In this document: piece by piece, positions 1 to 55,537 of the stretch
How positions within the stretch are numbered: the first letter of the stretch is position 1
Layout: every line of letters begins with the position of its first letter
NCBI GenBank assembly: GCA_950295325.1
Contig: OX485803.1
Span: 58,357,554-58,421,553 of the forward strand
Source: Polytrichum commune
Lineage: Eukaryota; Streptophyta; Polytrichopsida; Polytrichales; Polytrichaceae
Length of the DNA: 64,000 bases
Reading direction: 5' to 3'
Translations under genes and position numbers: made by a program
The notes under the pieces: model-generated
What the model saw: the letters and a program-made list of their open reading frames with translations, nothing else
Database searches by the model: none
Told to the model about the DNA's origin: nothing

Positions 1-2400
1 CAACTGGAGCTGAAATTGAGAGCCAACGATATGCGACAGTTGTGGGATCTCCAAGTGATCTAAATTCACAAGACTACCATTATCAATAGGAGGAACTTGG
101 TCCCCAGCCGGGTATCCCAACATCTTGAAGGCCATGGCTTGTTCCTTGCCGTGGAGCTCGGTGAGTGCATCTACGACCTTCTCAACGTACAGTCTCAAAT
201 CCTCGGATGGTGGGGCATGGTTTTCCGATCCCATCATTGCCCAGCCGATGTCAATGTTCTCCCTTACAATTAAAACCTTCGAAAAAACCTGACAACAGCC
301 GATACAAAGAACAGACCTAGGCCGTGAGTTCAGACAGACGACTTCAGGATCTGCACTACATACACATCGACGAATTAAGAAAACAACAAATTTCGGGATG
401 TAACATGTAGAATCCGATGAGCCCAAAATTTTGGGATGCAATAATGCTTACCTCGTCACACTGAACCCTTAAATTAGGGCTCGGACTCTCCTGGGCAGCG
501 TTGCACCACAAACCAGCCAATTCCTCTTTGTGTTCGGAAACCCGATGCAGATCTACGATAGCCCGTCTCAAAATTCGCTTTAGAAATGCTTCGATCTTCA
601 GTAGAACTTCCTCTTGATGCCAACCTTCGAAACCCATTAACGCCACTGTGTCGGACGAACAACAATGCAACGGTTCTTGGGTTCTCCCGAAGGTACATGG
701 GAAATACGTGAATCCTATGTCCTCCATATCCTGTGCACAAACGCATAGGCGTTGTGACTCCCGTTGATCCACAACTATCTCTCGGAGCTTCGCCCGTGTC
801 ATGCCTTTGATGGGGTGAGCGAGTGGCAAACCACGACCATACGTCAATCGGGTATACAACTTCAGGGCCCGCACCACATGGGGGCATTCAAATTCCAATG
901 AAGATCTATTGTCCCCAACCTCCTCTCGCATAACTCTTATAACCTCTTCCAATTCAGCCTCTGTGTGCTTCCAGGGCCGTTGAGGGCCAGACGCGAGCGG
1001 GTCTCTGATAAGAGCTTGGAACAAAGGTGACCAGCCCCACATGTTTTCCTCCTCTTCATAGTAACGTTGCCGACAATCGTACTGCTCCATTGCGTTTTTA
1101 ATATACGAGTTTCGAGCATCTTCTAACTGAGCCGCCACTCTTTCCTCGAACGCGGCAACCTGGACCAAGTGCTTCAAATACGACTCTAGCCCCCGAAGTT
1201 CTGCCTCCCGGCCCGCAGTGTCCTGCACTGGAGCATAAGGGTTCCACGAGCTCGTTGCACGGTGGACTGATGCCTGAATGTTCTCTTTGACCTGTTCTCT
1301 CGTCGCAGCGCTCTGAGTTCGCAGTAGTCACGATAATTAGGTCGGCATACAAAGACAGGATGAAACATTATCAATTTCAGAAGCATTTGCACTACATACC
1401 TCCGAGATGTGTTGATAAAAGGTGAGTATCTGCTCACCATGTTTGCAACTCGCCATAAAATCCACGGACCAAGTGCTGCAGGGATCCTAGTAACAAGTTC
1501 CCCATCCTCCTCCATTTTGGTCAAGACAGCCATACACTGTTCAGGTTGACTCAACAGTGCCTTGTTGAGAACAGGGACTGGTCCTTCATTGAGCAGCAGG
1601 TATAAACCGGGGGCATTCAGAGTCTTTGGGGGGCATTCCACGATCTCTAGATCACTAACAGTCAACAAGGCTGCAGCTCGCTGTGCATCCTGAAAGGCTT
1701 CATCCCGCGCCTGAAAATAACCAGACCGTACAATGTTGACGTCGTTGTCCTCGGCGCTTAAACCATCGTGGTGTCCCATCTCCATCGTTGACTGTACACC
1801 CCCTTGTTCTTCTTGTAAGTCCGTAGCAATTCCAAATTGTATATTACGAGAGAGCACATGAAAAGCATTATCTTCATCTCCGTCATCGTCCCCCCCTCCT
1901 AAGGTCATCGTGTCCTGCACATCTATCATGCGGACTGAACCGCATTGTACTCCGGATTCCTTCGCAGCACGACTTGCACCCCCCCCCCCCAATGTGGTTT
2001 CAGAAGCAGTATCCACTCTTTGTCTCTTCCTCGCCCTGTGCTCCCTTACCGACATCAACCGCTTCAGACCCTGGCTCCACGTCTGAGCTCCTTCGCTGGC
2101 CCCTTCTCCTTCACGTGTACTGGAACCCGTCTCTTCTATAGTATGCCACGCACTCATACCACGATCTCCGTTGGAAGACAAAGGTGATACGGGGACACTA
2201 GCACGGGAGTCAGGGGTAGTGCCGGGGGTCGATTCGGTGTTATGATTCCTCACCCTTCGACTAGAGCTTGGACTCATTCCCGCTGCTACGTGTGGTACCT
2301 GCTCAGCATACCTGACCCGAAGTGCCCTGGTACTACCTCCTTCCTGTCTTGCTGATCCACTCGACTTCGCCTGCATTGGAGTGCATTTAGGTCTGTTCAT
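1..2400 (-). CDS. Unrecognised multi-exon protein, C-terminal part beyond window
   Basis: I do not recognise this family. On the minus strand three exons join cleanly: 2400-1400 (333 codons plus 2 bases, from ATG at 2400), 1310-452 and 288-1, which stays open at the window edge. That gives at least 716 residues. Intron 1399-1311 is 89 nt (GTATGT...AG) and intron 451-289 is 163 nt (GTAAGC...AG); the phases agree. The N-terminal half is polar and low in complexity, with a basic RKRQRV stretch that could be a nuclear signal, a run of glycines coded by a C-tract at about 1980, and an acidic GGDDDGDED patch. The second half is denser: a charged, possibly coiled segment (about 1200-1030), then a Cys/Trp-containing region. 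The upstream frame is open to a TAG at 2500, directly after another ORF in the same frame, so the real start may lie further up and this copy may be broken. A transposon-derived or lineage-specific nuclear protein are both possible. Confidence 0.5.
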
Positions 2401-2499
2401 AGCAATTGGCAGAGGTCGCTCTTCTACCGAATTCAACGCCGCCTCTATCCGAGGAGCCCAGGGCCGTTGTCCTTCCTCACGTGGAAATGTGAGACCACA

Positions 2500-3120
2500 C
2501 TAGGCTAATACTTCTACCACAGCCTTTGTGTCGGATGGCTTAAAGGTGGGGTACATTTTCAAAACCCCACCTTGCCCGTTGGTTAACCGCTTCCACGCAT
2601 CGCACTGGTCCTTGTGTCGGTGATAAGACAATGCGTTCTTGTCCGAAAAATCCATATGACAATACCTGCACCAGTACCAACGCCGTTTATCCTTCCCTTG
2701 CATGCGATAGAAATGGTAGCGACATCGGTAGTGTACTTCTACGATCAAATCCTTGTATTCATCTTCAGTGTACAGGCAGACCAGTGGGACACGTCCTTGG
2801 GTCAATGTAAATCGGTAGACATTCTGACCTTTCGTTGTAGTGCCTTCGATCAACCCCACTGGCCCGTTTTGTACGAGATTCCACCACACATCGAATCCAA
2901 ACTCTTTTATAAGTCGATGGTCCTCGTTCATATTGACGATACCTGCAGAACTGTCCCTATCAAAAATCCCCCCATGATCCTGAGCCCATAGCCAACCACC
3001 CCCGAATCGCAATTCTGATGCCGTGTCTCGGTGCAGCCATTTTCCCCTGAATCCAATCCTTGCTTCTGCACTACCCTCGGCATCCCGGCTGCACCTTTGC
3101 AGGAGTGCGACATTCTGAAC
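2500..3120 (-). pseudogene. Zinc-finger-like ORF in frame with the gene downstream
   Basis: An open frame of about 206 codons on the minus strand ends at TAG 2502-2500. The same frame then continues without another stop into the exon at 2400-1400, so this looks like the 5' part of one longer gene cut by a nonsense codon; two adjacent genes are the alternative. The last third holds WCRYC, then H-x-H and a Cys about 15 residues on (C-x2-C...H-x-H-x4-C), a C2H2/C2HC-like finger of about 27 residues. The rest has aromatic, globular-looking sequence (HGGIFDRDSS, FDVWWNLV). No ATG opens the frame. A plausible splice acceptor (TTACAG) lies just 5' at 3126-3121, so an upstream exon may exist. Further up the frame is cut by TAA and TAG. 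Function unknown. Confidence 0.4.
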
Positions 3121-3550
3121 CTGTAATGTGGCTTCGGGAGGTCTGGTTGATTACTTGGGAGGGGCGACGTACTCCTTGAACGTGTTGTACACTAGTCTAA
3201 ACCCTAGTACACCCTAACTATTTGAAACAGCCCAATGCTCTATTTGGATTACCATAAGATGACCCCTGAACTTGGGAAACATGATGCCAGCTCCACCCTA
3301 AACCCTTCACGGCCTATGTTACGGAGTTCTATAGAACTACCTAAACCTTCACGGCAGAACGTAGACAGTTTTGCGACATTAAAAATAACAACCCTAAACC
3401 TCACCTTTGTGTATCTGGTACTACACGTATAATGTTCGTGTCCGACCTTACGCTCCGATCTTAGTCTTACATCCCACAACCTTCTCTCTTGACCCTAAAC
3501 CCTAAACCTCGACCTACTTACATGCTCCATCTATGTTGCACAGTTCACCC
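3121..3550. other. Gene-poor stretch with scattered CCCTAAA motifs
   Basis: No convincing gene. Short telomere-like words (CTAAACCC, CCCTAAACCCTAAAC) occur near 3195, 3300, 3395 and 3490, single or doubled, as is common in plant 5' flanking DNA. A short minus-strand frame at about 3205-3155 (VYNTFKEYVAPPK then stop) is in the same frame as the zinc-finger ORF and may be more of that decayed gene. Confidence 0.4.
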
Positions 3551-3745
3551 CGAACGCTTGCCCACAACACTAAACCACGGCTTATCTCCCCATTCAACGA
3601 TACACTACACACACCCGAACGCTTGCCCACAACACTAAACCACGGCTCATCTCCCCATTCAACGATACACTACACACACCCGAACGCTTGCCCACAACAC
3701 TAAACCACGGCTCATCTCCCCATTCAACGATACACTACACACAGC
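3551..3745. repeat. 65-bp minisatellite, three units
   Basis: The unit beginning CGAACGCTTGCCCACAACAC starts at 3551, 3616 and 3681, exactly 65 bp apart, and a fourth start at 3746 diverges after a few bases. The units differ at a single position or so (GGCTTATC versus GGCTCATC), so the array is young. It holds no spacer-like unique segments, so it is not a CRISPR array. Confidence 0.9.
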
Positions 3746-4954
3746 CGAACTCTAACCACAAACTAGGGCAACACAACGCAACACACAAAGAAAGGTGCAC
3801 TTCGGACCGGGGCACAACTCTAACTGCAAGACAAGAAAAGACGACAGGGTGAAAAGATGACACTACTAAGCTCACGGACTACTGCACTAGGCCGGGTGGA
3901 CCGGGCCGGGTCCGGAGGCCTTATCGCGGGCAGGGACGTGGCAATGGGACGGGTGGGCCGCCACGCGGGGGTCGGGGGTTTTTGGGACCCGTTCCGCCCT
4001 CCAAACCCATCCTTTCGCGGGCAGAGGAATATTGCCCGCGGACGCTCTATTTCGGGGTTGGAGGGGGGGTCTGTAATGAAACGCGTTTTTGTGAATGGAC
4101 AAGCCTATTAAATAGCATTAAGTACAGTAAGGCAATGTTTGGTTAGTTTCTAAAATGGGCATGAAAAAATAAGGAGCCAAATTTTTTGGCATCATGTGGC
4201 ACAAACCCAAGGATCATGTTGCCTTGTCCTAGGGGCCCACTGAACAGATAAGACTTTTTGAGAAATATTATGCACATAAGACCTCATGCACTTAACGTCA
4301 ACACACCTAAATCAACAAATTAAGCGGGGAGCATATTTTATATCATTAAAATCGTTGAAATTGTACATTTCATTGTTCTCAAGTACAAGAAGGTTCCAAC
4401 ACAAACAATGCATTTTGGGCGACCTAAGACCAACACTTACAATATATTAGATGTGAAGAGGGTTTACATCCTCATAATCAATATGTAACTATTGTGTAAA
4501 GATTTCTAAGTGTTGGTTTTGGGTATAAGGTAGAAAGGTCTTAAGTGGCTTGGTTTCTTGATCAAACCCTCATATTTGATTGGTATGTGGTTCCGTGAGG
4601 AGCAAAGAGCAAACATCATGAAGAACTTGTTTTAAAAGAGACTGGACTACGTCTTCAAATATCAAATAACTACTCTACTCTACTCTACTCTCAACAATGA
4701 ACGCAATTAGGAGGACCTATGTATCCAATTCAGAAACCAACAAACATGCGCTTCCAATAACCATAACTCAATCAAGGTAGGTCCGATCTTCAATCCAATT
4801 TTTGCAAATGTGTCATCATCATAGACTTGCTAATGCAACATGAGTTTTTTGGGTGTAAATGTGATCGGTAGAAGTTGGAGAACATGAAACACAAACTAGG
4901 TAACACCCACATACCTTACAGACCTTAGGCATTAGTCTATCAAGAATCACAAAC
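3746..4954. other. Intergenic, with a GC-rich island and a (TACTC)4 run
   Basis: 3880-4080 is strongly GC-rich against AT-rich surroundings, and open in two frames, but neither frame looks like a protein. A (TACTC)4 microsatellite sits at 4671-4690. The AT-rich rest shows no gene. Confidence 0.4.
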
Positions 4955-11500: not shown

Positions 11501-14500
11501 ACATAGATATGTTAATGTTTTTCTACAACCATCATTCCTGCAGGCAACTCTGGGAGAACGATTTGTCGGGCTATATTCCTGACTCTTGGAGAAACATGAC
11601 CAGCATGGTTAACTTGTGAGTACTTATATTTGATCTGTGAAGATTTGCACAAGGTGACAAATAATTAAAACTTAAGAAAGAGCTCACGTGCTGCACGCAG
11701 TTTCAATTAGTTAGACCTGAGTTACTGTAGTTCACTCTTCAGTCCATGCAACATGATTTATTTTGTACAACAAGAGGATTAAATTGGTAACTTTAGTGGC
11801 ATGATAATTTCTCTTTTTGAATGCAGTGGAATGGGCCAACTCTTCCTGTCAGGAAAGGTGCTAGATTGGCTTTTCCATTTCCCCAACATGACAATTATGT
11901 AAGTGTCATTGTCCTGATATTAGAGAACATATCGCCAGGACTTGATTCACCTCATCCTACAATGTTCCATCAAGTTCTTCAAATGTAATGTGATAGACTT
12001 GATTTTCCAGCTCCATGTGCAACAGCCACTTTGATTGAGGCCCAGATTCGGTTTCAGAATCGGGATCAGCGCAGATAAGCAATAATAGGAACTACATTGA
12101 AAGTAGTTTTTGATGTGGTGTGCATGCGTGCAACAGAAGCATTTCTCGCAACCAGTTTATGGGGGACTTCCCAAGAAATATTCCACATAACAGCAGCAAC
12201 TACTCACAATTCAAATCAGCGTAAGGTTCTCAACAGGTTCACTAACTAGTTCATTTGGGCTTTTGATCAATTTCAATGTGAACTTGCGACAGTCACACTA
12301 TTAACAAATGTTTGATATTGTTTTAGGGAGCTGGATTGCAACTATTTCACAGGTCCTTCTCCTACCAACGTGCCCCAACCAATGTAAGTGCTACCCTTCT
12401 GGAACAGGGAAAAACCACTGTTAGGAATTAATCAAACTTTGAGTTTAATGAAATTTTCTTAATTAGGAAAGTGTTGATGATATAATCAACACAGCTGGAA
12501 AAATTTGACTGAGCTTTAAATTTGAGATGTGTTTTTCTGTGAAAAGCAAATTTGGCAACAATTGCTACACTGGTCAAGTAGATGGTGACCCAGCCCACGA
12601 TACTGGTACTACGGAGTACACGCAGCAAAATTGCAAGAGAACTTTGAGCTGCACACAGTTCTACAGGCTCGTGAATCAGAGCAACATCGGTACAAGCACT
12701 TCTTTAGAAATCAGCCAGACTATCGTGCAATTCAAAATATTTACCAATTGCTATTGATCACTGCCTTCTACAAAGTCACGGTGGCTTTCAGGGAAACTTA
12801 ACCTACTGCGTGGGTTTCATAATTTGATGGTTTTGAGGAAATTTGACATTTGGTGGAGAAAAAACAATTTTTTTCTGGATTACCAGCGCACACACTGAAT
12901 CTGGTTGTCTTGCAGGGTGTGCCCCTTGTCCGAATTCCCAAGTGCTAGTGGATCCCAGCACATGTGTCTGCAGCAAAGGCAAGCTTCTCCCAACATCATT
13001 CCACCCATGTATCTTATGTTTAAACTCCATCATGAGCACCGTGAAGAAATCTTCAGCAAAAGCAAGTCTTAAGAATCAAAACATCTAAATTCAGAGAATT
13101 TTCAAAACTCTTTCTTCAGAAGATTTGTAGTTTGTAAGGTATGTGAGTATTATTTGGTTTTTTTTTCATGTTCTCCAACTTTTACACAACGAAACCTATG
13201 TTGCATTAGCAAGTGTACAGTTGAAGCATCAGCAAACATCAGATTAAAAATCGAACGTCCCCTGATTTAGTTATGGTTATCCAAAATTTATGTTCTTTAT
13301 ATCTTAACCGATTACATACGTCCTCCCAGTTGTGTTCAATATTGAGTGTGGAGTAGTTGAGCAAATTTCAGGACGTAGTCCAACTCCTTTTAAACATGTG
13401 TCTCTATGGTGTTTTGTTCTTTGATCCTCATCTAACCACACACCAATCCAATATAGGTTCCGATTAAGAAAAGTAACCGAATAACACCCACATACTTTAC
13501 TTCCGAAGTGGAAGTGGTGATTTGGGAGCATGCATCTCTTAATTCATGTGATGCTATGTTGGAATTCGTAATCCTGCAGACGCTGGGAGCCAAATGGTTT
13601 TGTCTATAGGTGGTGTGGTGGGTGGTGTTGGTGGGGGTGTGGTTGCAATCCTCCTTGCGGTACTATGTCTACTTCTGTACAAGCAGAAGCTGGACGCACA
13701 AAAGAACAAGTACTCTTTGTTCGGAAGACAATTCGAGGGCATCAATGACCCATGGGAAGTTCCGAAGGAGATCAAGAGGTACACCTTACAGGAGCTGGAG
13801 CAGGCCACCCAGGAGTTCAGCGATGCGAATTGCATTGGCCATGGTGGATTTGGCCATGTCTACCGTGGCACTTTGGAGGATGGCAAACTGGTGGCTATCA
13901 AGTGTGCCTCCCTCCAAAGCACGCAAGGGCAAGCCGAGTTTCGGAATGAACTCAAGTTGCTTAGCAGGCTTCACCACAGGAACCTTGTGGTCCTCGAGGG
14001 ATTCTGTGACGACAATGGCTACCAAGTGTGTAATTAGCTCATCCACAACTCTGATGAAGATTGACCTATTTTTGTATGTTATGGATCGTCATTATGCCAT
14101 TGCTACCAAGTATGTTTGCTCAATATCCACTACCTTGATGAAGATTGACCTATTTTTTAATGGTATGAATCGTCCTGATGGTATTGCTACCAACTGTGTA
14201 TGCTCAATATCCATTACCTTGATGAAGATTGACCTATTTTTTAATGTTATGGATCGTCCCTAATGGCATGGCCACCAAGTGTCTGCTCAATGTCTACGAC
14301 CTTGATGAAGATTGACCTATTTTTGGATGCTATAGATCGTCCATAATGGCATGGCTACCAAGTGTGTTTGCTCAAATCCACTACCTTGATGAAAATGGAC
14401 CTATATTTTGATGTTATTGATCATTCCTGATGGCTGAATGATGTTGGATTTCTGCAGATACTTGTCTATGAGTATTTGGTGAAGGGTAACCTTCACGCTA

Positions 14501-21043: not shown

Positions 21044-21054
21044 TACTCAAGAGA

Positions 21055-21169
21055 ACAGGAGGCATAACACCCAATACTGCATCTCGGATTCCCGAGATCA
21101 ATATAGGGTTAACGGGCTCACATTCACGCCGGTATGTATAATACAGGCGTTATCTTTTCTTTTCTTTTC
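21055..21169 (+). mobile_element. 115-bp LINE 3' stub with 11-bp TSD
   Basis: It carries GGCATAACaCCC, then ACGGGCTCACATTCACGCCGGTA, then a GGCGTTA-(TCTTT)n tail. The same words in the same order form the 3' end of the long LINE (47420-47543). Flanking direct repeats TACTCAAGAGA lie at 21044-21054 and 21170-21180. This is a severely 5'-truncated copy made by target-primed reverse transcription. A SINE borrowing the LINE tail is the alternative, but no pol III promoter boxes are evident. Confidence 0.85.
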
Positions 21170-21180
21170 TACTCAAGAGA

Positions 21181-24712: not shown

Positions 24713-25828
24713 AAAGAAAGAGAAAAACAATAATAACATATAACAAATACAATATTGTTCCTCATTTAAATTACTTAGATTTTGCCGAGATAGAGAGAAA
24801 GGAGGAGAGAGAAAGAGACAACGCCAACCTCTAGTGTTGGCGCGAATCAGGGATGCTTCACCTTGATCATAGCCGCAAGCTCATATGTGAACTTGGGGCC
24901 TCAAAATATATAAACAACTATGAGAATAACATACCATTATTCAACCATGTGGGTCAGTTCCATGATATTGGATTATGCCAATTATATATGTGAGCCCCTG
25001 GAACAAATTAAGAATATTTATTTATTATTCATACATTCAGGTCAAACTTGGAAATTTGGGTGGAGTTATACTACCAACACTATGCACATAAATTATTGTT
25101 CATCCCATGAAAATACCAACACTATTCACAATATTCATACTATTCATACTTACACTATCCATTATTTCTACTGGCATCAATTTCCTCTTATTTTCTAAAT
25201 TTCTTTCCATGAAGGTAAAATGGTGAAGGCCCATGTTATATGCTAAGTACAGAATGGAACACAACCATGCAACTGAATAATGTTATGAAATAATGTGTTT
25301 GCCATTATGCCATGGCTAGTTGGTAACCTTGACGAAAGTAAAAATTGTTGATAGAGAGAGCAGTAAGTTCATTATTAGCTCATATCTATGAATCTATAGG
25401 TGGCCTGATCGGGTCATTGATCGGGCCACCCATGGATTCATAAATCAACTTTTCTTAAGTACAACTTCTATGCAATGCGACTCACTAAGGTGGATGGTTC
25501 AAGACCTTTGCTACAACTTACAAAGTGTTGAAACGAGTATTAGATTGGTATCGTTTTTCTTTGATACCATTTGGGCACCTATAATGAGGATTTCACATTA
25601 TTGATACTACTAGGGTATGGTTATTTGCAATGTTGTTGTTTTATTATCATTTAGGTCTATATATTTTGCATAAACCTTCATACCGAGGTAAAACACCGTA
25701 TTATCAATATTCTTTAGAAAAAAATCGATCCAAATAATGATCCGTTATAAATTGAAATTCTCACCTTGAGGTACCCACCAAAGAACAACATTTGATTGGT
25801 ATTACAAATTAGATACCCACAAATGACG
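24713..25828. other. Intergenic with a 56-bp hairpin
   Basis: No gene. 25387-25442 is an imperfect palindrome: TATGAATCTATAGGTGGCC on the left and GGCCACCCATGGATTCATA on the right, around GATCGGG-TCAT-TGATC. 24817-24842 carries a small ACGCCAAC/GTTGGCG hairpin. Confidence 0.5.
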
Positions 25829-26287
25829 GTGTAAGAGCCCAACAGAAAGTGTCCAAAGGCTGTCCCAACACACCTCCAAAATCATGGAGTGTGGTCACGG
25901 ATCCTCAAGTGTAGTGTGAAGTCATATGTGACCGGGCCCTCAACCAAATGCTAATTCAATGAATTTCTATTCATGCAGGGTCTCACACATGAAAATATAG
26001 AACAAACCAACGATTCTGAAAATTCGGAGTGCCATGGTCTTCCGATTTTGTGTTAGGCCTACCTCCAAAAAATGATTTTTGAACATAGTCCAAGTGACCA
26101 TGAAACATGATCCATTTGATGCCATGTAGGGATCCATGTAGACTTTACATCCATTGTGCATTCACGTACTCCGTTGGTCCCTCAAGCGTAGTGTGAAGCA
26201 AACTTGGACAGGCTCCGCCTTTTCCACCAATGAGAGCACTTGAAGTGTGATGGTCACGGGCTCTCAGTCTCGTGTATGAAGTGGCCC
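25829..26287 (-). mobile_element. Harbinger-like MITE copy, left end worn
   Basis: It matches the reverse complement of 55037-55537 through most of its length (shared blocks AAGTGTCCAAAGGC, CAACACACCTCCAAA, CCCTCAACCAAATGCTAATT, CATGAAACATGATCCATT). The right end CTCGTGTATGAAGTGGCCC is the family terminus; the left terminus is not recognisable. Confidence 0.7.
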
Positions 26288-26329
26288 TGGAAAGTCCGAA
26301 TAGGACCTCATTAATGTTTATTTGGACAA

Positions 26330-27005
26330 CGGTTGCTCCGGGGCTCCCTAAATACCCCCGACGAGCGTTGCAGCTGTCAGGCTCGGAGGCCAGGTTCGGT
26401 GGGGTTCATTTTTCTGGCCCTCCCCGTTTTAGCCCTTTGGTGATTTTTTTTGGTTTTTTTTTGCTAAAATTGGGTCTTGCGGCCCCAAATTACAGAAGGG
26501 AGCCCCTTCTGAGATCAAATAAGGCCCCACCCAATTAAAAAAATAGGGGGCATGTTTTATCCCAACCCGGCCACCCCCTCCCGAACCTAGCCTCCGAGCC
26601 ACGCTCGATGGGGGTTTTTAGGCAGATCCGGTTGCTGGATAACATTACCCAACCCAATACTCTTAACTCCGGCGCGGAGTTCGATGCGGCTCCGGGGAGG
26701 TTCGGATGCCAGCTCCGGTGGGTTCGGGTGGGTTGGGGCAAAAATTGCCCCCTATTTTTTTGATTGGGTGGGGCCTTACTTGATCTCATAAGGGGCCTCA
26801 TAGAGTAATTTGGGGCCGTAGAACCCAAATTTAGCAACAAAAAAAACCAAAAAAAGTCATCAAGGGGCCAAAACGGGGAGGGCCAGAAAAATGGACCCAC
26901 CGGAGCTGGCATCTGAACCTCCCCGGAGCCGCATCGGAGCCGCATTGAACTCCGCACCGGAGTTAAGAGTATTGGGTTGGGTAATGTTAGGGCCGGTTGC
27001 TCCTC
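26330..27005. mobile_element. Foldback element with nested inverted repeats
   Basis: 26395-26590 (TTTTTCTGGCCCTCCCCGTT, then ATTGGGTCTTGCGGCCCCAA and others) is repeated inverted at about 26710-26905. A second inverted pair, ACATTACCCAACCCAATACT followed by CTTAACTCCGG at 26640-26672, returns reversed at 26957-26990. The whole could fold into a long hairpin. Open frames here (26272-26538, 26957-26535) are mirror images of each other and not genes. Confidence 0.7.
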
Positions 27006-43293: not shown

Positions 43294-43582
43294 ATGTTCA
43301 TAAGCACTCACCTTCTAGATCATGCGCTTGATGTCTTTGGCAACTGGTTGTTGAGTCGCTGCCACGCCCAGCGGGAATGGGATCGCGTAGATCCCACAGA
43401 CGAGGACCACGCTAGTTTTATGAAGCTTCTTCCCCGTTTGGCCGTCATCCACAGCTCTGCCAAAGAATTTGTAGGGAGCATAGTGGAATTCGCAGCTTTC
43501 CGACTAAACCATTGCCATTCTTCCCGTTTTTTTATGAGTTTGGGTCAGCATTTTGTAAACCGCATGTTGTGTTTGTGAACAC
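43294..43582 (+). CDS. Unrecognised ORF fragment cut by the LINE
   Basis: About 90 codons with protein-like composition (DVFGNWLLSRCHAQREWDRV, SAKEFVGSIVEFAAFRLNH), GC-richer than the surroundings. The LINE inserted at 43583 inside or just past its end; the other side of the target continues at 47555. No family recognised. It may belong with the ORF at 42393 as an exon of the same decayed gene. Confidence 0.3.
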
Positions 43583-45409
43583 GTCCCACATGGACCTCAA
43601 CCTATCAAAATGTGCCATTACCGGATGCCCTAATAAATCTAAACTAAAACCCTCTACCTTCAAAGCATACATCCAATCACAACATATCACATACGACTCT
43701 CAAAATTTCCCCATCCTCACCCAAAACGAACCATATACGTATTTAGGAATAAACCTCACACCATCACTCAAATGGAATCTATAAAAACAAATAACGATGA
43801 AGAAAATCAAACAACAAAGCCAACTCCTAACTACCTCACACAAAAAATCAAAATCTTGAATACAGTCATCAAACCGCGAATAGCATACGCCTACTACGCC
43901 GTCCCATTCTCCAAACCGGATATTAAAAAATTAGACAAAATCATTAGCAAATTAACCAAAGAAATTTGCAACATCCCTAAAAGCTCGGCAAACATTCTCA
44001 CCCGCCTCCCACAAGAAAGCTTTGGCATTAATGTATCCTCCCTACTACCCGACTACATCCGATGTATAGGACAACAACTAATCCAAGCACTTAACGACCC
44101 GGGTCAATTAGACATTATATACCAAGGGCTAATCAAACATATAGCGGCCAAGTATGGTGGGGCCCGACACCTCCCCAAACTCAAACAACAAGCATGTGTC
44201 CGTTCCCCTATACCTCGAACACTCTTTCTCCTTGAAAGAGAATACGAAATCCACGTCCACTCCACAAGCCAAGCATTTCCCATCAAAGAAACATCACTAG
44301 AAAGAATTTAGAAAACCAACCCAAATTATAACACCCTAACGAATATATCCAAAGCCAAGACCCAAAAATATCTAGACAAACTATACATATACGGCATTAC
44401 CACACTAACACAAATCCAAAACCCCACTACCAAAGCCATACTAACCCCAAAAGAATTTCAATCCACATACAAACACATACCCAAAACCATCAAAGAGCTC
44501 CTCCAACAAGCAACAATATTGTTCCCCCCCCCACCCGCAAACTTTACAAACCCAATACAACAAACACCACTACAAAGCGAGGTCATGATAAACATTCCCC
44601 TCCTAGGACAAGCAATCCAAACAATAATAAAAGAAAAGACCTCCACCAAAAAAGACAAATGGGGTGCACAAGCAATAAGGACGAACTACCTTTGCCAATG
44701 GCAAGCCCCACAAGGCATCACACAACAATGGAGAAGTGAGGTAGAACTACTACACCCGGATAATATATTTATAGAACATAACATACTATATATTACACAA
44801 TATCACACAAAGCAAACCGAACTATTAGCCACCCACACATACGCTAATTGCCTTAATCACATACAATCAAAAGACAATAAATTCATACACCCCCCTCTTC
44901 ACATTACCAACCTAAAATTATCCATACAAGAATGCAACCCGGATAAAGACATACAAGTAGACCAACCAACCATCCAACTACAAAACTCCGAAGCCAACAT
45001 ATATGACCAAAAAGGAAACTACATGGCCACCATCACTACAGAAAGGCTACAATGGCTATGGAACCAATTCTCTTACCACCACTTCTCACAAACTACAAAA
45101 GCCCTCCAACCCCCACCACAAAACTTCGAAACTGAAATACTTTGGCTAATACAAAGATACATAACCATACTCCCCAAAAGAAAGCCAAAAAACATACAAC
45201 CCCAAAACATGCATCATACTATACACCCGACAATTATCACTACATTAATAAACTCCCTCAAAATCACGCACTCCTACTATTCATCCCCACTCACATGCCC
45301 CACACAATTCATACAATATCACTCACCCCATAACCGAGACATAATATTTGGTTCCCTAGGACACGCACAAATGGAAAGGCATTGGTCTAGCCTACCCCAC
45401 AGACCATAA
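43583..45409 (+). pseudogene. LINE: RT thumb, connector and unidentified segment
   Basis: Starts inside the RT: SKCAITGCPNKSKLK, then EPYTYLGINLTPSLKWN (43727-43784), the YLG block that follows the RT palm. A TAA and a frame slip follow (43785-43840), then a 179-codon frame to 44311 (KILNTVIKPRIAYAYYAVPF, DYIRCIGQQLIQALNDPG), typical LINE thumb/connector. After another slip, a 296-codon frame 44519-45409 has no match I can name. Around 45340 the frame breaks again. Reading FGSLG in one frame and KWKGIGLAYPTDHKTT, EAIHWARMAAKEDP in the next gives a W-x-G...P...A-x2-WA...P pattern. Confidence 0.65.
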
Positions 45410-45787
45410 AACAACCATTGAAGCCATCCACTGGGCTAGAATGGCGGCCAAAGAAGACCCAAACACAATCACCATACTCATAATCAACCATAACGACTGG
45501 ACCACACAACAAATCCCACTCACCACAAGTGGTGACATACACACCCTCGCAACCATCCCTCCGCATACCATACTATATAACCCTACGCCGGAATGGCCAA
45601 AATATTACCAATATGTAGAGCCCTCGCTCACAACAATACTATGTATACATAACCACGCCAACCTCACACCAAACCTAAAAACCCCACAAGACCTCGCACA
45701 AGTACTAGAACATACCATCAACGCACCCATAGACACATTCCCAATGAAACCCACAACGCCAAATTACCACATTAAATTCTCGAACAT

Positions 45788-47340
45788 ATGGAAAAACGCC
45801 CCCATAAAAAACATCCCCCCCCCCCCCCACCAACAATCCCCCAATCAAACCTCCCCATTAAATACTACCACCAACACCCCCCCCCCCCCAAATTCCACCC
45901 ACAACAATGCATATACACAGACGGCTCATTCATTCCACCAACTAAGAACTCCGAAGGTCAAATAGAGGGTGACATCGCAGGTTCAGGAGTCTATAGCCCC
46001 AACACAAACATCCGTATAGCAGAACGACTACCAGGATATCAAAACATACTTAGAGCAGAATTAAATGCTATACTCATAGCAGTCAAAACCATTCAAGTCA
46101 CAAAAATCGAAACACACATCTTTACAGATAGCCTCAATAGCATATACCTACTTAGTAACCATATACAACACCCAACCTCACAACACCACTACCCGGACAA
46201 AATCCTCATAGCCGCCATAATACACCAAATTTACCTAACACCGCACTTAGTACATATACATAAAGTACGTGCCCACACGGGCATCAAAGGAAATGAAATA
46301 GCCGATACGCTAGCCAACGAAGGCACAAATAAAGAAAAACCCACTCCCACACCCCATATACACATCGCACATGCTACACCATATTGGCTAACAAGTTGTC
46401 CCACAACAACACGCAATGGGGCAATACGAAACTTGCACACATTCATCACAAAAACACACGAAAAACAAGAAATTAGGTTGGCCCAACATAAACACCCATA
46501 TGTAGACAAATGGCTCTCCAACGACCTAATAAACCACAAACTCTCCAATCACTTTTGGAAAAACAATAAAATAACGGACGCTCGAATCACCCAAACTTTA
46601 AAATTTCGATATGCCCAATACATGGGTAACCATAGAAAGAATATTTTTTGGCCCCTCAAATTTCAAAACCCAAACTGTACATTATGCCGTAAAAATGAAA
46701 GAGATACATGGCCACACCTACTCTCAACGTGCGAACACCCATACTTAAAGGGCCTAAGAATAGCACGCCACAACAAGGCAGTACATCTCATCACCCAAAC
46801 ACTCCAAGCCAACAAACACACCAGATATTACACACTAACAAATGCAGGTAATATCAACAACAACAAGCAAGAACAAACAGTCCCCGAATGGCTCATTGAA
46901 TGCCTATGCCCTCAAACCGGCTGCCAATGTCATGCTAGACTAAGACCCGACATCCTATGTATTACAGGAGCCCCTAATCACACCCCAACACCCATGCTAC
47001 CATCACACGCACGAACCATCCAATTCATTGAATTCACGTATTGTCATGATAGATTCCCATAACAAGCCATAACACACAAACATGCCAAATACGACCCATT
47101 AATCAACACTATACAAAGCAAGGGATGGAAAACAAACCCTCTTATAACCATCACAGCAGGAGTTAGAGGTGCCATACACGAACATTCCATCAAACAATTA
47201 GAAGACCTCAAAATCCCAAAATCTAATATCAAAATCCTCATGAAAAACATACATCAAAATGCCATCAAATATCTCACATACCTCGTATTAAATAAAAGAA
47301 AACTCGATAACAAACAAAATCCCGTTGCACCCCCCTAAAA
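45788..47340 (+). pseudogene. LINE: RNase H, CCHC finger and restriction-like endonuclease
   Basis: A 424-codon frame (45788-47062) holds a complete type I RNase H: Asp45 (YTDGS), Glu91 (LRAELNAI), Asp114 (FTDSLNSI), His163 (RAHTG) and Asp173 (EIADTLAN). All catalytic positions are kept. Next is C297-x2-C300-x9-H310-x4-C315 followed by a RIARHN motif, the CCHC finger of R2-type elements. Then a CxC-CxC cluster and RPDI (386-389), IEFTYCHD (414-421), and, after a TAA at 47060, KHAKYDPL and VRGAIHEHS up to a second stop near 47337. RPD...E/D...K-x2-KY is the restriction-like endonuclease signature. The first Pro-rich residues come from C-tracts that may be miscounted. One stop inside the nuclease domain is the main lesion. 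Confidence 0.85.
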
Positions 47341-47554
47341 ATCCCCCCCCACTCCTTACACTAACCTCCTTACACTATACTTTCTCTTTTGTTTTACTAA
47401 CAGAGCCCACCTCCCAACGGAGGCATAACTCCCCATGCTACAACACGGCCCGCCGTGTTTAGCATTCGGACAACGGGCTCACATTCACGCCGGTACAATG
47501 TGCGGGCGTTACTTTTTCTTTTCTTTTCTTTTCTTTTCTTTTCTTTGTGAACAC

Positions 47555-55036: not shown

Positions 55037-55537
55037 GGGCAACTTCACACACGAGACTAAGAGCCTATGACCGTTACACTTCAAAGCACTCTCATTCGTG
55101 GAAAAGGTTGAGCCCGTCCAAGTTCACTTCACACTACTCTTGAGGGACCAACGGAGTATGTGAATACAAGATGGATTTAAAAGTCTACATGGATTCCTAC
55201 ATGGCATCGAATGGATCATGTTTCATGGTCACTTGGATTATTTTCAAAAACCACCTCTTGGAGGTAGGCCTAACACAAACCCGGAAGACCATGGCATTCC
55301 AGACGCTCACAACCGTTGATTTATTCTATTTTAACATGTGTGAGGATCCACATGAATAAAAATTGATTGAATTAGCATTTGGTTGAGGGCCTGATCATGT
55401 ATGACTTTGCACTACGCTTGAGGGTCCGTGACCACACTACATAAATTTGGAGGTGTGTTGGGACGGCCTTTGGACACTTTCTTTTGAGCTCTCGCAACTT
55501 CATGGTCACGGCTCTTGGCTCGTGTGTGAAATGGCCC
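55037..55537 (+). mobile_element. Harbinger-like MITE, 501 bp, TTA target
   Basis: Ends GGGCAACTTCACACACGAG and CTCGTGTGTGAAATGGCCC are inverted repeats that go on for about 40 bp (AAGAGCC...GTGACC...GAAGT). TTA flanks both sides (55034-55036, 55538-55540). GG(G/C)-type ends with a TTA duplication fit PIF/Harbinger (Tourist-like) MITEs. Related copies: 25829-26287 and the stub at 20058. The open frame inside (55171-55359) also exists in the other copy (26161-25967), but as shared repeat sequence, not as a conserved protein. Confidence 0.8.

Follow-up and report, generated by a model that had tools for sequence, protein, structure and literature searches.

What kind of retrotransposon occupies positions 43,583–47,543 of a 64,000-nucleotide stretch of Polytrichum commune contig OX485803.1 (the whole stretch is called the window here), where the end of a reverse transcriptase (RT) is followed by a ribonuclease H (RNase H), a CCHC finger and motifs of a restriction-like endonuclease (RLE)? 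The initial annotation had read this combination as a land-plant long interspersed nuclear element (LINE) of a Dualen/RandI-like lineage, or of an unnamed sister clade. Very probably, the locus is a dead, 5′-truncated LINE whose family also has better preserved members in this genome, with a single long product composed of an N-terminal stretch, a 2A motif, an apurinic/apyrimidinic endonuclease (APE), RT, a chromodomain-like module, a PCIF1-like module, RNase H, a CCHC knuckle and RLE, in that order. Domain order, conservation, purifying selection, duplications, tail and a predicted 3′ fold are the direct observations on which this reading is built.

The insertion is a non-LTR (long terminal repeat) retrotransposon on the forward strand, bounded by an exact 11-bp target-site duplication, TTTGTGAACAC, at 43,572–43,582 and 47,544–47,554, which directly abuts the element on both sides and occurs nowhere else on the forward strand of the window. 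The copy starts within the RT and is therefore 5′-truncated. The frame from 43,584 reads ...MDLNLSKCAITG...EPYTYLGINLTPSLKW, and this C-terminal RT end (43,584–43,781), with the YLGINL pointed out previously, resembles the RT ends of six sister copies. It is followed by the chromodomain-like module (44,600–44,833; YLCQW...W....L...QYH), the PCIF1-like module (44,990–45,745) and the RNase H domain (45,905–46,324), all on the same strand. The latter gave E = 1e-14 with PF00075 over 45,776–47,062 and E = 8.5e-5 with ribonuclease H1 in the PDB, and it holds the complete D-E-D-H-D set of residues with catalytic roles in RNase H (TDGS, RAEL, FTDS, RAHTG, NEIAD); judged by sequence similarity, we are certain of its identity. 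Further downstream lie a CX2CX9HX4C knuckle (46,676–46,732) followed by RIARHNKAV, and the RLE region (46,943–47,338), with RPD at 46,943, IEFTYCHD with its E at 47,030, and KHAKY (KX2KY) at 47,078–47,092. Every motif of the initial annotation, including the finger with R-x-ARHN, was thus found, and two modules between RT and RNase H had been overlooked, but the copy itself is broken: it contains three stops (43,782, 44,309 and 47,060) and three frame changes (soon after 43,784, near 45,360, and in a C-rich run around 45,817–45,890), and KX2KY lies behind the in-frame TAA at 47,060, after which the frame is open to a stop ending at 47,338.

Relatives were sought in the same genome (407.8 Mb in 64 contigs). 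With the RVT_1 profile, 150 of 2,620 first-look candidates were scored and four matches were picked for long frames, three of which (L009, L010 and L011) are relatives of the window LINE, while L012 reads as an ordinary L1. With PF12237, the profile matching the PCIF1-like module, 150 of 697 candidates were scored and all 150 were above the cut-off, giving at least 150 PCIF1-like places in the genome; 30 of these matches (L013–L042) were inspected and four longer stretches were taken (L043–L046), L043 including L014. The seven sister copies (L009, L010, L011 and L043–L046) were chosen for long frames and are uninformative on the proportion of intact copies; in five of them, a single long frame holds the 2A (NPGP), APE, RT, RNase H, knuckle and R2-type endonuclease motifs. 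This frame has 2,372 codons in L009 and 2,919, 2,924, 2,663 and 2,625 codons in L043 to L046, respectively (2,851, 2,856, 2,663 and 2,625 codons within the stretches analysed), and the longest frame in 200 mononucleotide shuffles of L043 did not exceed 216 codons. A Pfam scan of three long frames (L009, L043 and L044) found RVT_1, RNase H and PF12237 in all three, with E-values of 1.4e-32 (RVT_1), 1.3e-14 (RNase H), 9.7e-8 (PF14529) and 3e-6 (PF12237) for L009, 2.8e-12 (PF12237) and 1.3e-5 (PF03372) for L043, and 1.2e-10 (PF12237) for L044. Two subfamilies can be told apart, A with the window copy, a short copy near 21 kb of the window, L009, L010 and L011, and B with L043–L046; the window copy is 71.6–73.2% identical to L009, L010 and L011 over 3.8–4.0 kb. 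Four stretches of viral contigs matched a pattern, none of which encoded a relative.

The APE, which the initial annotation had suggested looking for upstream, is present in these fuller copies: the columns WN, QE, YMP, GDFN and SDH, which include residues with catalytic roles in this nuclease, are invariant in 6/6 aligned sister copies, and an APE family was matched in two of the three long frames scanned (L009 and L043). Ahead of it, GDIxxNPGP occurs in all seven sister copies; compared with the 2A/StopGo consensus D(V/I)ExNPGP, the E is kept in three (L010, L043 and L046), the other four having H, Q or K in its place. 2A sequences in LINEs are cited in the parts seen of two publications (PMC4981915; PMC12846837), the second of which states that almost none were found in plant viruses. 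Upstream of the motif, 509 codons are open in L043, where shuffled sequences have on average 22.6 stops (minimum 10, in 500 shuffles), and the 508-residue piece N-terminal of 2A matched no Pfam family. A 5′ unit around 2A is repeated in tandem in L009 (713–1248) and L011 (207–843), with spacings of 433 and 462 nt, and the same search found no such repeat in L010, L043 or L044; L010 has two NPGP motifs. The arrangement in L009 and L011 recalls the promoter monomers of some L1 elements. The 5′ ends of L010, L011 and L043–L046 are probably outside the stretches analysed, and no convincing target-site duplication was found round the sister copies, the best match for L009 being its tail repeat.

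Searched against the PDB, the RT profile scored 130.6 bits with 9nl2, 119.5 with 9nl3, 119.1 with 9dou (R2Tg) and 86.4 with 8gh6, all R2 proteins, as against 81–83 bits with LINE-1 ORF2 chains; the genome's own L1 (L012) scored 95.6. These scores, which are no tree, are intermediate and do not point to L1. As to the 3′ nuclease, LINEs with an RLE are described as having a CCHC knuckle, RH, PD, D/E and KX2KY in this order, with GXW beyond the fourth strand, in the passages available of PMC5678591. In our alignment of five sister copies and the window copy, read through its TAA, the knuckle and the RH, P-D, E and KX2KY columns are invariant in all six rows, and the RLE is assigned by motif on account of this order, its PD-(D/E)XK fold being a prediction.

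Several observations weigh against the proposed design. Two of the seven sister copies, L010 and L011, are broken, and no APE family was matched in the L044 frame at E 0.1, although the APE columns are conserved in this copy. The L1 of the same genome outscores one R2 protein (8gh6) with the RT profile. A profile of the knuckle and RLE matched 8gh6 and 8ibw alone, which we take to be R2 of Bombyx, with E = 0.48 and from the second half of the knuckle on, while the RLE core profile matched no solved nuclease in the PDB, its sole row being a designed helix bundle (E = 7.3). Two single-sequence structure models had a pLDDT (predicted local distance difference test score) of 33 and 36, too low to show or refute a PD-(D/E)XK fold. 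Lastly, the knuckle spacing is X9, compared with X7-8 in the passages of PMC5678591, and no GXW was seen by eye after TAGxR in the six-row alignment.

The family has been under purifying selection, with ratios of nonsynonymous to synonymous substitution (dN/dS) of 0.05–0.23 in 19 of 20 domain comparisons and of 0.48 in the remaining one, to be read with synonymous sites near saturation in some pairs (dS up to 2.4). By domain, the ratio was 0.05–0.08 for RT (four pairs), 0.08–0.22 for APE (four pairs), 0.11–0.18 for the PCIF1-like module (six pairs), 0.09–0.13 for RLE (three pairs), and 0.06, 0.23 and 0.48 for the chromodomain-like module (three pairs). Over 8,991 nt, L044 and L045 share 99.6% identity, and their 3′ flanks differ, which is why we think that the family probably moved recently.

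The window holds this 3′ end of the element once more, in a second copy that is very short, at 21,055–21,169 on the forward strand, with its own 11-bp duplication, TACTCAAGAGA, at 21,044–21,054 and 21,170–21,180. It is 74% identical to the 3′ end of the longer copy over 113 nt, and a 23-base piece of this end matched both places, with a mean of 0.00 matches in 100 shuffles. We considered a short interspersed nuclear element at this site and think it the less likely reading: the match is confined to the LINE 3′ untranslated region (UTR), no tRNA is present in the window, and a severely truncated LINE is simpler. In the longer copy, the 3′ UTR fold (47,403–47,510) is followed by a (TTTTC)n tail (47,511–47,543), and the tails of the family are (TTTTC)n and (TCTA)n. 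The predicted folds have z-scores of −6.4 (43,583–47,543) and −4.9 (21-kb copy). Nine 3′ ends were folded by minimum energy and compared by eye. A closing helix, GAGCCC/GGGCTC (GGGCUC in the RNA), surrounds two hairpins in four of the five subfamily A ends (window, L009, L010 and L011); the 21-kb copy begins inside this helix and hence lacks it. The same plan is shared in subfamily B by L043 (AGTGTCT/AGACACT) and L046 (AGTGTCC/GGACACT), L044 and L045 being exceptions that fold differently, and a terminal hairpin precedes the tail in 9/9 ends. The middle hairpin varies on both sides among copies (AACACGG/CCGTGTT, ATCACGG/CCGTGAT and ATCTCGG/CCGAGAT). After the stop codon, the 3′ UTRs of L043–L046 have a stretch that, by eye, is like a tRNA-type B box in antisense; a tRNA scan (ARAGORN) of the seven sister copies found none.

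APE and RLE motifs in one element together with RNase H are traits of Dualen/RandI, in which this combination is described in the passages seen of PMC4640811 and PMC3636483, and the family appears to be a dual-endonuclease LINE of Dualen/RandI-like kind with added modules, its RLE being assigned by motif. With the APE upstream and RT scores that do not point to L1, the proposal of the initial annotation, a Dualen/RandI-like lineage or an unnamed sister clade, is supported. R2-type RLE LINEs (R2, NeSL, Utopia) share the CCHC knuckle and the order RH, PD...E...KX2KY, and the RT profile found its best PDB matches in three R2 proteins; unlike these LINEs, the family encodes an APE as well as an RNase H downstream of the RT, and its two copies in the window are at unrelated sites with 11-bp duplications. 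U2 targeting of the Utopia type was discarded as a candidate, with no RNA family match in the window.

The family could also belong to the known Dualen/RandI clade, its host being all that is new; the chromodomain-like and PCIF1-like parts would then either occur throughout Dualen or have been added recently. To this view we give somewhat less than an even chance. Beyond the shared APE, RLE, RT and RNase H, this agrees with the intermediate RT scores and with the short-repeat tails, similar to those of green-algal RandI in the portion seen of PMC3747384. On the other hand, the family differs by its 2A motif and its two added modules, and the passages on Dualen that were covered, to which the original Dualen paper does not belong, make no mention of chromodomain or PCIF1. 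No cysteine protease family was matched in L009, L043 or L044 at E 0.1. Such a domain was reportedly part of the 2005 description of Dualen, and the family is therefore not filed here as a Dualen member. Passages of a 2022 review give L1 and RTE as the LINEs of land plants and do not list the family's combination of two nucleases with the two added modules (PMC9033089); algal Dualen is called comparatively obscure in the part seen of PMC8226300, and in that of PMC7466625 two LINEs are named for Physcomitrium and the word Dualen is not used. Among the open-licence matches listed, no title or abstract opening reported a LINE with one of these modules or a land-plant Dualen, a weak negative in view of papers that mention Dualen beside plants, such as PMC4438587.

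A second alternative is that both module labels are due to a linker of biased composition, rich in T, N, H and Q, that resembles the two domains by chance. For the chromodomain-like module, a profile of 11 copies, the window row included, had eight PDB matches (E 0.018–0.18), six of them chromodomain Y-like and two CBX4, presumably a chromodomain protein as well, and Pfam Chromo was found in five of the 11 members (best E 0.00097). PF12237 matched the window with E = 5.7e-8, or 3.1e-8 when read across the frame change near 45,360; in L021 it reached E = 2.3e-13 and covered 13–173 of 176 positions. A ten-copy profile searched against 177,635 PDB sequences gave two matches at E ≤ 10, both PCIF1 (0.0063 and 0.11; 0.013 and 0.18 with two rows exchanged). 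Chance would find some room in the strong composition bias (A 0.43 and G 0.10 in L043) and in PDB E-values of only 0.006–0.18, and the following points also count against our labels: the PDB matches of both modules lie close to threshold, PF12237 scores 27.4 bits in L009 and 30.5 in the L010 piece, below the Pfam cut-off of 31.1, the Chromo member shown scores 16 where the curated cut-off is 25.1, WTTT or similar stands in place of the WKGY usual in chromodomains, and the chromodomain-like part is the least constrained (dN/dS of 0.48 in one pair). Nevertheless, PF12237 attains 1.1e-12 in the genome, with almost the whole profile covered in L021, every PDB search returned one kind of protein, and the PCIF1-like module has dN/dS of 0.11–0.18 in six pairs, so that we regard chance similarity as improbable. 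As an observation apart, a Cys-rich cluster between the RT and the chromodomain-like part (CHPPCNHCPMPC in L044) was seen in subfamily B (L043–L046) and not in L009–L011.

The weakest alternative, that of a plain L1 or RTE remnant of the plant kind in which the 3′ motifs are matched by chance, is very improbable: land-plant LINEs are indeed listed as L1 and RTE (PMC9033089, in part), RNase H is also possible in plant L1 and an ordinary L1 of this genome reaches 96 bits with the RT profile, but the RLE motifs are invariant in six rows with dN/dS of 0.09–0.13 in three pairs, the catalytic H is kept in the RNase H, in contrast to the R of the RNase H type reported from plant L1 (PMC4640811, in part), three R2 proteins score 119–131 bits with the RT profile, and the tails are (TTTTC)n and (TCTA)n where an A tail and no RLE would be expected of a plant L1. 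What the family shares with plant L1, such as L012, is the N-terminal APE and RT; RLE motifs, H-type RNase H, tails and domain order set it apart.

PCIF1, the cap m6Am methyltransferase, and the module of the dual-endonuclease LINE are alike in the helical part and the start of the methyltransferase part, including D-x-x-F-G-S/A-x-G. Unlike PCIF1, the module sits in a LINE polyprotein and has NPPF, whose residues are catalytic in the enzyme, replaced, mostly by H/F/Y-P-x-N/D/T. NPPF was kept in none of 37 distinct copies, from a survey of 38 loci in which a pattern located the site in 35 (34 distinct copies, L014 lying inside L043) and three more were placed by eye, with AHPHT and AHPHN (L031 and L033) and AYPTD (window); outside this site, the six reading frames of the loci contain NPP[FYW] seven times. 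The alignment with 6irv crosses EANPPF, which faces yahPkn in the profile. The absence of NPPF suggests that methylation was lost, and RNA binding without methylation is the probable role of the module, its ligand perhaps being the capped 5′ end of the mRNA of the element itself. The chromodomain-like module is probably involved in the choice of chromatin. It recalls the chromoviruses (Ty3/Gypsy elements with a chromodomain) as a module within a retroelement pol; here, unlike in those, the element is non-LTR, the module is placed between RT and RNase H, and the aromatic cage of chromodomains is partly present.

All biochemical activities of the family are predicted from motifs and profiles, and its working would be as follows. 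The ribosome would skip at the 2A motif and free the N-terminal protein from the pol protein, which would recognize its own RNA by the folded 3′ UTR; the target would be nicked by one of the two nucleases, and the 3′ tail would be copied by target-primed reverse transcription. The second strand would be cut about 11 bp away, in keeping with the 11-bp duplications observed, and RNase H would remove the template before the second strand is made. We further advance, as a rather doubtful scenario, that a LINE lineage captured a cap-adenosine methyltransferase domain which lost catalysis and was retained by selection because it reads capped RNA, acting on the 5′ end of its own mRNA (in cis preference or in selecting the 5′ end when the second strand is made). 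It would stand next to a chromodomain that serves in site choice and to two nucleases, each of which possibly cuts one DNA strand.

Elsewhere in the window, four adjacent open frames on the minus strand (1–3,150; 149, 323, 437 and 216 aa) include a C2H2-like finger and are perhaps one broken gene or element, and a 75-nt stretch occurs three times at 3,549–3,753 with 65-nt spacing and 96–99% identity. An 83-nt unit is repeated five times at 14,028–14,445 (64–87% to the reference copy), next to a receptor-kinase-like piece which, with a 6-phosphogluconate dehydrogenase-like gene, was recognized by eye and suggests a plant host. Nested inverted repeats at 25,823–26,989 have a distant inverted copy at 55,084–55,503 (85–86%), perhaps another mobile element.

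In the passages seen of PMC4640811, the origin of APE LINEs by replacement of the RLE by an APE is argued from where Dualen is placed. With a dual-nuclease LINE whose copies are very similar and have long frames, the division of labour between the two nucleases could be tested. In its PCIF1-like module, the m6Am writer would have a relative carried by a LINE, and its chromodomain-like module would be a LINE counterpart to the targeting of chromoviruses.

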